64,000 bases of DNA from Kitasatospora sp. NBC_01266. GTDB taxonomy: Bacteria > Actinomycetota > Actinomycetes > Streptomycetales > Streptomycetaceae. The translations under genes were made by a program, and so were the position numbers. The notes under the pieces were generated by a model. That model was given only the letters and a program-made list of their open reading frames with translations, made no database searches and had not been told where the DNA came from. Where the stretch lies: positions 8,122,001 to 8,186,000 of the forward strand of contig NZ_CP108458.1 in assembly GCF_036242395.1 (NCBI RefSeq), in the 5' to 3' direction. This document shows positions 42,173-63,517 of this stretch, in pieces (positions within the stretch are counted from its first letter, which is position 1; each line of letters starts with the position of its first letter).

Positions 42173-43437
42173 CCGCGACCCCCGTCACGACTGCCGCGAC
42201 CGCCGCGACCGCGGGGAACGCCGAGATCGCCGTCACCGGGCTCGGGGTGGTCAGCCCCGCCGGGATCGGTGCCGAGGCCTGCTGGCGCCGGGTCTGCCTG
42301 GGGGCGCCGACCGCCGCCGTCGATCCCGAGCTGCGCGGCCTGCGGCCGGACTTCTCCTGCCGGGTGCCGACGTTCGACGCGGTCGGGCGGCTCGGTGCCG
42401 CCCTGGCCAGGCGGACCGACCGGTTCACCCAGTTCGCGCTGCTCGCCGCCCAGGAGGCCGTCACCCAGGCCGGCCACGACCCGGCGGGCTGGGACGCCAC
42501 CCGGGTCGCCGTGGTCACCGGCTCCGCCTTCGGCGGGGTGGGCACGCTGGTCCGGCAGGCCGGGCTGCTCGCCGAGCACGGTGCCGGACGGGTCTCGCCG
42601 CTCACCGTGCCGCTGGTGATGGCCAACATGAGTGCCGGGCAGCTCTCCGCCGCGCTCGGCGTGCGCGGGCCCAGCCTGGCCGTCGCCACCGCGTGCGCCT
42701 CGGGTGCCACCGCGATCGGGGTGGCTCGCGACCTGCTGCGCTCCGGCGCCTGCGATGTGGCGCTGGCCGGCGGCACGGAGGCGGCCGTCGACCGGCTGAC
42801 CGCCGCCGCCTTCGCCCGGCTGGACGCGCTGGCGCCGCTGCCCGCCAGCCAGGGCCCGGCGGCCGCCTCCCGCCCGTTCGACGCCGAGCGGCAGGGCTTC
42901 GTGCTGGCCGAGGGCGCGGCGGTGCTGGTCCTGGAGCGGCTCGCCGACGCCAAGGCACGCGGGGCGCGGGTGCTCGGCCGCCTGGTCGGGTACGGCGCCG
43001 CCGCCGACGCCCACCATCCGACCACCCCGCACCCGGCCGGGGTCGGCCTGGAACTCGCGCTGCGCCGCGCGCTGGCGGACGCGGGCGCGCGGCCGGCCGA
43101 GGTCGACCACGTCAACGCGCACGCGACCGGGACACCGCTCGGTGACCTGGCCGAGGCACGGACCCTGCACCGGCTGTTCGGCGCCGTGCCGGTCACCGCC
43201 GCCAAGGGCACCCTCGGGCACACCCTCGGCGCGGCCGGTGCGATCGAGGCCGCCCTGACCGTGCTGACGGTGGCCGAGGGGCTGATCCCGCCCACCGCCA
43301 ACCTGGCCAAGCAGGACCCCGAGATCGACCTGGACGTGGTGCACGGCGCGCCGCGCCCGGCCCGGATCGGCCTCGCACTGACCGACTCGGCGGGCTTCGG
43401 CGGGCAGAACGCGGTGCTCGCCTTCGCACCGGCGTGA
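42169..43437 (+). CDS. FabF-like beta-ketoacyl-ACP synthase
   Basis: 422 residues, condensing enzyme. The active Cys is in ATACASGATAIG (about 180), with His in NAHATGTPLGD (about 320) and KGTLGHTLGAAG (about 355), and the Gly-rich SAGFGGQNA at the end. The complete Cys-His-His triad means it can decarboxylate and condense. No chain-length factor partner is present, so it behaves as a FabF homodimer rather than an aromatic type II KS/CLF pair. The N-terminus has a short Thr/Ala-rich extension. GTG start overlaps the ACP stop. Confidence 0.92.
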   Translation: MTATPVTTAATAATAGNAEIAVTGLGVVSPAGIGAEACWRRVCLGAPTAAVDPELRGLRPDFSCRVPTFDAVGRLGAALARRTDRFTQFALLAAQEAVTQAGHDPAGWDATRVAVVTGSAFGGVGTLVRQAGLLAEHGAGRVSPLTVPLVMANMSAGQLSAALGVRGPSLAVATACASGATAIGVARDLLRSGACDVALAGGTEAAVDRLTAAAFARLDALAPLPASQGPAAASRPFDAERQGFVLAEGAAVLVLERLADAKARGARVLGRLVGYGAAADAHHPTTPHPAGVGLELALRRALADAGARPAEVDHVNAHATGTPLGDLAEARTLHRLFGAVPVTAAKGTLGHTLGAAGAIEAALTVLTVAEGLIPPTANLAKQDPEIDLDVVHGAPRPARIGLALTDSAGFGGQNAVLAFAPA

Positions 43438-59933: not shown

Positions 59934-60935
59934 TCAGGCTTCGTCCTGGTCGACGCGCTCGATCTCGGCCAGGAGGGTCAGCCCGGTGGCGTCGCGGCGG
60001 ACGGTGAGGGTCTTCACCTCGGCGTGGGCCGCGGCGTGGACCACGGCGGTGATGTCCTCCTCCTCGCGTTCGATCAGCGGCCAGTTGGCGCCGTACTTCA
60101 TGGCGACCGCGAGCGGGTTGCCGGTGGCGATGTTCGAGAAGTAGAAGGTCCCACCGGGCCGGACCAGGCGCTTCAGGGCGGCGCGGATGAGGACCTGGGC
60201 GGGGCGCTCGTCGAGGTAGTCGAACAGGCCGCCGGCCAGCACCAGGTCGAACGGGCCCGCGTCGGCGGCGAGTTCGGCCGACCTGCGCAGGGCGTTGCCC
60301 GGGACGGTGCTGGTGTGGGCTGCGGTGTCCGCCGGGAGATCGGCCAGCGCACGGGTCAGCGCGTCGGGGTCGATGTCGTTGAGCACGATCCGGTCGCCCG
60401 GGCGCAGCAGCGCGGGATCGACGCGGCGCAGATCGGCGGCCGCGCCGGAGGCGATCAGCAGGATCCTGCGGGGCGGCCGGGATTGGCCGCCGGCCAGGCA
60501 TGCCGCTATCAGCGCGGCCTGGTGGGCGATCTTGTTGTGGTGCTGCTGCGCGGCGTCGGAGTGCAGCAGGAAGTCGTCGAACGCCCGCCCCCAGCTGCCT
60601 GGTTCGCCGTCCGGGTGCCGCGCGAGCAGGTACTCGATGATCTCGAAGTCACCGGCGTAGCCGCGTGGTTGCTGCTGAGCCCGGTGGACCAGGGCGGAGG
60701 CGGACACCACGCCGGCCAGCGGCGCCAGCGCGGTGGCGAGCTCCTGCTCGCTCACCGCGGCCACCTGGGCCTGCCGCACGACGGTGGGGAAGTCGCGCAG
60801 CAGGAAGTCGGCGAAGACGGCGTGCGCCTGCTCCTCGCTCAGCTACTGGGCGGCGGGCAGGGCTTGGCAGTAGTGCTGGGCGAAGTCGGACACGCGATCC
60901 AGCGCACCATCGGCGCAGGCGAGTTCGGACGTCAT
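59934..60935 (-). pseudogene. SAM-dependent methyltransferase with in-frame amber codon
   Basis: A methyltransferase frame of about 333 codons starting at the ATG 60935 (MTSELACADGALDRVSDF) is cut by TAG at codon 31 (60843-60845); the same frame continues as LSEEQAHAVFADFLLRD and on to 59934. Downstream, residues show ARGYAGDFEIIEYL-like sequence, a SAM-binding region (RRILLIASGAAADLRRV, VLNDIDPDALTRAL) and FDLVLAGGLFDYLD. It resembles class I methyltransferases of the group annotated for 3-hydroxypalmitate methyl ester (extracellular factor) synthesis. Translation could restart at GTG 60779 (281 residues), which would lose only an N-terminal helical part. Recent inactivation, restart or a sequencing error are all possible. 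Confidence 0.7.
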
Positions 60936-61054
60936 GACGGGACCTTCGGTTCGGTGATCACGGACGTGGGGGCCGTGGCATCATCGCGCGCCGGGGGAGG
61001 CCCGGTGCACACCGGCCCCCGGTCACGGGGGGCGCAGTACGCCGCTGACCCGGA

Positions 61055-61747
61055 TCAGCCCGAGACGGCCGGTGAACCCGAGCGGAGTTCCTTGAGCAAC
61101 TCGCGCTCGTCGGCGCAACACCGGTAGCCGAGCCGGCTGTTGACCGCCAGCATCGGGGCGTTCGTGCTGTCGTTGGCGGTGTAGGCGTCGGTGAGACCGG
61201 CGGAGCGGGCCCGGTGCAGGGACGCGGCCTTGACGAGCTTGGCCAGGCCGCGGCGCCGGTGGGCGGGGCGGGTGTCGGTGCCGGCCGACCAGTAGCGGGT
61301 GGCGCCGTCGGTCTGGGCGAAGGTGAGGGCGGCGGGCTCGCCGTCCACCACGGCCACCGTGCTCAGCCCGTGGTCCAGGTCGGGCCGGGTCCAGCTGGTG
61401 TCGTACCACTCCTGGTAGCCCAGCGCGTCCCACGTCAGGTGGCCCGGCTCGTCCTGCGAGGCCTCGTGGAAGAGCCGGTAGACCGGGCGCGGGTCCGCCA
61501 GGTAGTCGCCGGCGGTGCGCAGTTCGACGCCGGGCGGCAGCGGTGGCACGGCCGGTAGGGGGCCGGTCAGGTCGAGGTGGTTGAAGTGGCCGGTCCGCCC
61601 CGTCCGGTAGCCGTGCCGCTCGCCGAAGGAGAGCGAGGGTGGTTCGTCGTCGGCCCAGCAGCGCACGTGGGTGACGCCCAGGGCGCGCAGGTACGCCTCG
61701 CCGGCTCCGGTGACGATGACCACCCTGACCTGCGATTCGTTCTCCAT
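61055..61747 (-). CDS. GNAT acetyltransferase, first domain truncated
   Basis: 230 residues. The C-terminal GNAT domain is complete, with the acetyl-CoA loop around TRPAHRRRGLAKLVKAA (RRxGxA type, about 160-170) and NDSTNAPMLAVNSRLGYR. The N-terminus (about 5-60, FGERHGYRTGRTGHFNHLDL) looks like the last part of another GNAT domain whose first two-thirds are missing. Tandem-GNAT proteins of about 330 residues are common, so this looks like a shortened version. The ATG has no strong ribosome site. Confidence 0.72.
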   Translation of the reverse strand: MENESQVRVVIVTGAGEAYLRALGVTHVRCWADDEPPSLSFGERHGYRTGRTGHFNHLDLTGPLPAVPPLPPGVELRTAGDYLADPRPVYRLFHEASQDEPGHLTWDALGYQEWYDTSWTRPDLDHGLSTVAVVDGEPAALTFAQTDGATRYWSAGTDTRPAHRRRGLAKLVKAASLHRARSAGLTDAYTANDSTNAPMLAVNSRLGYRCCADERELLKELRSGSPAVSG

Positions 61748-61802
61748 GCCGGCGATCCTCGGACCCTGCCGCCGGCGACAAGGTCAAGGCATCCAGGACA
61801 CC

Positions 61803-62537
61803 TCACACGGAGGGTCGGTCCATCGGCTCCAGGTCGTCGAGCGCGAGTGCGTCCGGCCGGGGCACGTGTCCGAAGTCGGGATCGTCGGCCCTGACCGGGA
61901 GTTGGTTGATCACCGCCTCCAGGGCCGCCGGGAGCCGGGGCGCCAGGCCGCGGTGGCAGCGGGCCAGGATGTCGCGGCGTACGGCGTCGGGGAGCAGTGG
62001 TTGGCTGGCGCGCAGCGGGCGCGGTGGCGTCGGGCGGGCCCGGGCGGCGAGGTCGCGGGACCAGGCCAGCCAGTAGTCCGCGTCGCTCGACTCGCCCAGT
62101 CGCAGGTGGTGCAGGTGCAGGCAGTAGGCGGAGGTCCGACTCCCGGAGCCGGCCGCGAAGCGCCACCAGAACTCGGCGCCGTCGACCCGCTCGCTGGCGT
62201 AGAGCAGCGCGGCGAACACCTCGGCGCCTTCGGGGTGGATCTGCCGGCTGTTGACCAGCAGGTCCAACCCGCGTGCCGCCTCCGGGGCGTCCAGGACCAG
62301 CGCGACGACCAGACCGAGTTCGAAGGCCGCCTGCTCGTGCTCGGAGGGCAGGTTGGCCGGCGCGGCGGTGAGCCGGGCCTGGCGGGCGGTCGCGATCAGC
62401 TCCTCGTAGGGGCGGCTGGGAGCAGGGACCGAGAGCGCGGGCTCGCTCTGCGCGCCCCCCTGCGCCGTCGGGTCGGTCGCATCGGGCTCGCAGCCCAGCC
62501 ACTCGGGCAGCGCCGCCGATCTGGGCCGCCGGGTCAC
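61803..62537 (-). CDS. Unrecognised soluble protein coupled to a sigma-like factor
   Basis: 244 residues, no known family recognised. Helical, with no signal or membrane segment; the middle (SRTSAYCLHLHHLRLGESSDADYWLAW) is notably aromatic and His-rich. Its ATG overlaps the stop of the sigma-like gene (ATGA), so the two are made together. By position it could be an anti-sigma or partner protein, but it lacks the membrane helix or HxxxCxxC motif usual for anti-sigma factors. Confidence 0.62.
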   Translation of the reverse strand: MTRRPRSAALPEWLGCEPDATDPTAQGGAQSEPALSVPAPSRPYEELIATARQARLTAAPANLPSEHEQAAFELGLVVALVLDAPEAARGLDLLVNSRQIHPEGAEVFAALLYASERVDGAEFWWRFAAGSGSRTSAYCLHLHHLRLGESSDADYWLAWSRDLAARARPTPPRPLRASQPLLPDAVRRDILARCHRGLAPRLPAALEAVINQLPVRADDPDFGHVPRPDALALDDLEPMDRPSV

Positions 62538-63142
62538 CGCTCGGCCCGCCGATCCGGCAGTTCGCTGATCCCCAGGCGCCGGGCCAGCCGCTCGCGGGCG
62601 TGCCGCAGGTTGGAGCGGACGGTCTCCACCGGCCGGTCGAGATAGGCGGCGATCTCCTGGTCGTCCAGGTCGAGTACGTAGCGCAGGATCACCACGTCGC
62701 GTTGGCGGTCCGGCAGGGCCAGGATCGCGCTGTACAAGCCGACTTGGTCGGCCTCGCTGCGCAGGCTGTCACCGGCGAGCTCCTTGAACCGGTTGATCAC
62801 CACGGCGAAGGTGGTGGCCTCGACCGTCAGCTCGTCCTGGTTCCAATCCCATTCGTTCAGCTGGGACTTGAGCAACCGCCAGGCGTAGGCGGCCGGCACC
62901 GGATGGCGCAGCGCGTGCTGCCACTGCAGGGCCAGCTCGGCGGTCATCGCCGCCACCACCATCTCGGCGTCGGCACGGTTGCCGATCCTGGTGCGCGCGA
63001 AGGCGAGCCAGGCCCGGCTGTGGAGCTCGCAGAACACCTGGTAGGAGAGCCGCAGCCGGGCATTGGCCGGGTTCTCACCGGTGTCGTCCACCGCAGGCCC
63101 TCCCGGACGCCCGGGTGTACGGCCGTCCTTGTCCATGGTCAT
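62534..63142 (-). CDS. Sigma-70 family (ECF-like) regulator
   Basis: 202 residues. Region 4 is clear (about 140-195: AILALPDRQRDVVILRYVLDLDDQEIAAYLDRPVETVRSNLRHARERLARRLG). Region 2 (about 30-100) is only weakly like normal ECF sequences (AWLAFARTRIGNRADAEMVVAAMTAEL). Might be a divergent sigma factor or an HTH regulator derived from one. The chosen ATG is at 63142; another ATG (MDKDG) is two codons on. The promoter probably lies in the AT-richer 63143-63400 region. Confidence 0.75.
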   Translation of the reverse strand: MTMDKDGRTPGRPGGPAVDDTGENPANARLRLSYQVFCELHSRAWLAFARTRIGNRADAEMVVAAMTAELALQWQHALRHPVPAAYAWRLLKSQLNEWDWNQDELTVEATTFAVVINRFKELAGDSLRSEADQVGLYSAILALPDRQRDVVILRYVLDLDDQEIAAYLDRPVETVRSNLRHARERLARRLGISELPDRRAER

Positions 63143-63517
63143 CGGTCCTGCCTTCGTAAGGTTCTCGGCGTTCGGTCAGCGGCGCGGCCGGGCCGCCTCG
63201 GGAAGAGTGCGCTGCTCACCTTCGACGACCATCGAACCAGAGTGGGATCGTTCTGGCGCAAGACAAGAACAGTTTGTGATGTTCCGATGATCCCACTACC
63301 TGACATGGTGTCATATGCGGCTGGCAAAACTACTCTCGGGTTGTCGGGGTGGCATGGCCGCGAGTGGGTAATCATGGTGCTCGTCCAGTTGTACGGGTGG
63401 CGGCGCGCTCACCAAGGATCCGCAAGGATCCGCAAGGATCCGCAAGGATCCGCACGGACCACTGCGGGGCGGCCGTTGGGCGTCCGCGCGGCCATCCGGA
63501 TCATGAAGGGGGAATCG
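63143..63517. promoter_or_regulatory. Divergent region with operator-like dyad and 10-bp repeats
   Basis: A 375-nt gap between the sigma-like gene and the methyltransferase, less GC-rich than average at 63230-63380. It holds the dyad TGACA-TGG-TGTCA (63301-63313) and four exact tandem copies of CAAGGATCCG (63413-63452), followed by a decayed fifth. No small gene was seen. Confidence 0.45.
63413..63452. repeat. Four exact 10-bp tandem repeats
   Basis: CAAGGATCCG repeated four times without spacers (63413-63452), 65 nt before the methyltransferase start. The 10-bp period is close to one helical turn, so identical faces of the DNA would line up; either a protein-binding array or simple slippage. 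Confidence 0.85.

Follow-up and report, generated by a model that had tools for sequence, protein, structure and literature searches.

Does the in-frame TAG codon near the start of a methyltransferase gene of Kitasatospora sp. NBC_01266 mark a broken gene, a gene that begins further downstream, or an error in the determined sequence? A preliminary description of the window, that is the whole stretch of 64,000 nucleotides analysed here, had offered a fresh nonsense mutation, a restart at GTG 60779 and a base error as explanations. We assign a probability of roughly 0.72 to the reading that a recent C-to-T nonsense mutation broke an accessory methyltransferase gene, so that the full-length enzyme would be lost. 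The TAG is most likely the mark of a gene broken in an everyday manner; a base-calling error is less likely, and the finding is no new genetic trick.

Translation of the minus strand from 60935 to 59934 yields 30 residues, the TAG at 60845-60843, a further 302 residues and a closing TGA at 59936-59934, in agreement with the preliminary description. The coding-like character that the latter had ascribed to the sequence past the TAG is borne out by the G+C content at the three codon positions (0.73/0.50/0.83 upstream of the TAG, 0.76/0.33/1.00 between the TAG and GTG 60779, and 0.77/0.49/0.93 downstream of this GTG), and the composition looks coding-like before as well as after the stop. When the window was scanned for in-frame stops preceded by 20 or more open codons and followed by 150 or more, this TAG was the only one of 157 that passed the thresholds for coding-like composition on both sides, thresholds which had been relaxed after a stricter first scan yielded no stop at all and had missed this one, too. 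A mechanical ORF call places the in-frame start at GTG 60779 and gives a protein of 281 residues. The features of the locus are compiled in Table 1.

Table 1. Positions of the features discussed, numbered from the first nucleotide of the window
Feature	Position	Strand	Evidence or remark
Interrupted methyltransferase frame, ATG to TGA	59934..60935	-	break at codon 31; gapless colinearity with the intact 1002-base frame of G045
In-frame TAG, codon 31	60843..60845	-	CAG in the nearest orthologue
Leader piece of 30 codons	60846..60935	-	29 of 30 residues the same in the intact orthologue of G045
Remaining part with class I methyltransferase domain	59937..60752	-	Pfam Methyltransf_12, alignment, structure model
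Stretch preceding ATG 60935 with GAAGG, ribosome-binding-like site	60936..60955	-	-4.9 kcal/mol
GTG, restart proposed in the preliminary description	60777..60779	-	0.1 kcal/mol
GTG with AGGTGG stretch upstream	60753..60755	-	-8.7 kcal/mol; codon the same in G045
GNAT acetyltransferase frame, N-terminal part missing	61055..61747	-	comparison with relatives

The gene encodes a predicted class I SAM-dependent methyltransferase. The part past the TAG matches Methyltransf_12 (PF08242) above the curated cut-off (E 3.8e-8, 34.4 bits versus 30), and a match to Methyltransf_11 lies slightly over its cut-off; the NCBIfam models gave no match. The structure model of the read-through protein has a mean pLDDT of 92.5 and a pTM of 0.90, and a fold search of the PDB returned 3ocj as the top match (E 1.0e-10, TM 0.56). 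The best hit of a sequence search of the PDB, OvsM (9bxh, E 0.0033), is a weak match and was left unused for functional assignment. Compared with class I methyltransferases of the Methyltransf_12 type, the window protein adds an N-terminal helical part and conserved motifs resembling GYAGDF and GLFDYLDE. Nothing on this gene was present among the matches listed in a literature search.

The closest orthologue found resides in another genome of the genus, G045, and its protein is 94% identical. The G045 frame is colinear with the interrupted one over all 1002 bases, begins with the same ATG and contains neither indels nor stops; its codon 31 is CAG (Gln). Compared with this frame the TAG is the sole lesion, and 31 of 334 codons differ. 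The DNA of about 85 bases upstream of the ATG is also closely similar in both genomes, and the ribosome-binding-like site listed in Table 1, which supports ATG 60935 as the original start, lies in a stretch that is near-identical in G045, with one substitution and one inserted base. Since the methyltransferase gene and these approximately 85 bases are common to the two genomes while the flanking genes differ, the pattern is as would be expected for a gene moving or being lost singly. A G+C-rich inverted repeat at 60991-61022, upstream of the gene and spotted by eye, is partly kept in G045 despite the different upstream genes.

More distant relatives also read across the position of the stop. 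The intact orthologues L095 and L096 are 60-68% identical and align on both sides of codon 31, the aligned residue being Arg in L095 and His in L096; the protein of Actinacidiphila acididurans L003 is found within L095, which stems from a genome of the same family, and that of Streptomyces sp. L005 within L096. L097 and L098 (53 and 52% identical, with open frames of 358 and 370 residues) carry matching sequence before and after the codon-31 position, as judged by eye and not from an alignment. Together with G045, five intact orthologues encode sequence across this position. The preliminary description had stated that orthologues which all start past the TAG would speak against an interrupted gene, and had suggested looking in them for CAG, GAG or a similar codon; with G045 and the four distant orthologues reading across, the former does not apply, and the CAG of G045 is of the kind anticipated.

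These data are best accommodated by the following scenario. A rare accessory class I SAM-dependent methyltransferase gene, the original product of which would have extended from ATG 60935 to 59934, appears to have undergone one C-to-T change that converted the Gln codon CAG into TAG. Translation would consequently stop after 30 residues, at the expense of the full-length enzyme. The lesion is probably recent, because neither a second stop nor an indel has followed it. Among the three explanations originally put forward, a nonsense mutation thus receives the best support, namely from the CAG in G045, from the common ATG and upstream DNA and from the four other intact orthologues. Codon 31 itself is left unpolarised by the outgroups with their Arg and His residues, and the direction of the change is therefore deduced from the relatives being intact. 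Bacterial pseudogenes that owe their existence to a single nonsense mutation are a known and ordinary category. The window gene resembles them in its early stop, the preserved rest of its frame, its sparse distribution and the existence of an intact orthologue that starts upstream and has a sense codon at the site of the stop, and nothing distinctive in comparison with them was seen.

Neither dN/dS nor the polarised changes set the window copy apart from neutrality or from G045, and they speak neither clearly for nor clearly against relaxed selection on this copy. Pairwise dN/dS between the two genes is 0.65 (Fisher p 0.22 versus neutral), a value that spans both lineages including the intact one. 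Five polarised amino-acid changes are assigned to the window lineage and two to that of G045 (eight and four when partly resolved ones are counted, with eight more unpolarised, the TAG among them), and synonymous changes amount to two and three, with six unpolarised. The split of amino-acid changes between the two lineages, set against that of synonymous changes, gives Fisher p values of 0.56 (5:2 versus 2:3) and 0.59 (8:4 versus 2:3). Codons that differ from G045 are clustered towards the start of the gene (16 in codons 1-110 versus 15 in codons 111-334, Fisher p 0.027). As the boundary at codon 110 was picked post hoc and the intact copy shares the differences, nothing is drawn from this clustering.

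At the DNA level, an identical picture would result from a base error or from a restart further downstream. The strongest competitor of the nonsense pseudogene is a real TAG in a gene that survives in shortened form. A start past the TAG, most plausibly at GTG 60755, would yield a protein of 273 residues that lacks the first two helices and keeps the methyltransferase domain, which we regard as unlikely. Of the start-like codons past the TAG that were listed up to codon 110, this GTG scores best, and its Shine-Dalgarno-like site pairs with -8.7 kcal/mol, the 5th percentile for the region's positions being -8.2. Judged by such sites, it appears to be a better candidate for a restart than GTG 60779, the start proposed in the preliminary description, at which Shine-Dalgarno-like pairing is absent and which is thus unsupported; GTG 60764 reaches -5.7 kcal/mol and is GGG in G045. 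A shortened enzyme would also agree with the 302 codons past the TAG that are free of stops and indels, with the first strand of the methyltransferase core at residues 157-161 of the model and with invariant alignment columns that begin at residue 92, an onset that is partly built in because the most distant rows cover just that part. On the other hand, a protein beginning at residue 61 would be missing two helices that the model places with confidence (residues 11-31 and 34-58), all five intact orthologues (G045, L095, L096, L097 and L098) encode sequence in this region, and GTG 60755 is also present in G045, where the frame is intact from the upstream ATG.

Somewhat less probable still is a base-calling or assembly error in a gene that is intact and carries CAG. 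A single-base difference in an otherwise undamaged frame is just what such an error would produce, and some sequencing methods are known to err at modified bases. At the level of the assembly and the locus, not of the base itself, the two contigs and the completeness of 99.62% speak against it, and so does the stop scan, in which no other of the 157 stops passed the thresholds. Furthermore, with 31 of 334 codons differing from G045, single-base differences are common here anyway.

We consider it improbable that the stop leaves the strain with two pieces, a short leader and, started at GTG 60755, a methyltransferase trimmed at its N-terminus that would be a new enzyme with altered substrate access. 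Least probable by far, and practically dismissed, is readthrough or recoding of the TAG, with the help of a suppressor tRNA or as pyrrolysine, to give the full-length protein: the coding-like frame does go on past it, but the codon is not conserved (Gln in G045, Arg in L095, His in L096), TAG closes one of 27 further long frames of coding-like composition in the window (TGA the remaining 26), none of the 70 tRNA genes found in the genome (matches above the Rfam cut-off, each called by ARAGORN) has the anticodon CUA, and the single match in a profile search for PylS scored 21.8 bits, under the cut-off of 178.15. Three weaker tRNA matches below the Rfam cut-off were not called as tRNAs, and among 14 control genomes the PylS search gave matches in 13, over the cut-off in one. 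ARAGORN also called a tRNA-Ser at 42898-42991 of the window. This call is probably false, since it lies inside DNA that reads as protein-coding, presumably ketosynthase-like by its motif, and an Rfam search of 42700-43200 gave no family match.

If a nonsense mutation is accepted as the most probable cause, the annotation of a probable pseudogene, with 60935 as the original start, suits the locus better than that of a protein of 281 residues from GTG 60779. Beyond annotation it has little bearing, save as a small example of how a gene of sparse distribution decays in a chromosome arm. In its contig of 8,425,813 bases it lies in such an arm, the distance to the contig end being about 243 kb. It was found in at least two of 70 genomes of the genus (its own and G045) and at least seven of 394 genomes of the family sample, counts that are minima, since scoring covered a subset of the first-look candidates of each genome (up to 33 in the genus and up to five in the family sample). 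Given these counts, it is a rare and dispensable accessory gene.

Next to it, upstream, lies a 5'-truncated GNAT acetyltransferase gene, a second remnant by comparison with its relatives; like the sparse distribution and the position in the arm, it is in keeping with a broken accessory gene. All seven relatives that were translated carry an extra N-terminal part and align with it from their residue 90-122 onwards (390 in L111, which has a longer open frame), corresponding to residue ~12-15 of the window frame. A search in all six frames of 61000-63200 (E 0.01) recovered nothing of this earlier part, with the exception of a weak match of residues 84-132 of L110, which falls on the C-terminal half of the same GNAT gene. 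Relatives of the GNAT gene are present in 56 of the 70 genomes of the genus, its own included, and absent from G045.

Most members of a second group of methyltransferase relatives (L006-L010, L099 and others) are frameshifted. Four of them (L007, L008, L010 and L099) have a stop some 20 residues ahead of the matched part, so that they offer only a short stretch upstream of the codon-31 position. A search of plasmids gave 32 matching records; among the 20 listed, the best was a four-piece match of 56.6% to a Streptomyces plasmid, the other listed matches were 25-31% identical, and one further record falls into the 60-80% band. Frameshifted or partial copies of the related methyltransferase gene occur in L004, L006-L010, L027, L099 and L100, with DNA identities of 88-99% to L010 and up to ~4.6 kb in common, and were found in records of several Streptomyces as well as of Actinomadura, Sphaerisporangium and Pseudonocardia. 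On a Streptomyces plasmid the match falls under an annotated IS5 family transposase, and these copies look like a mobile, mostly broken passenger.
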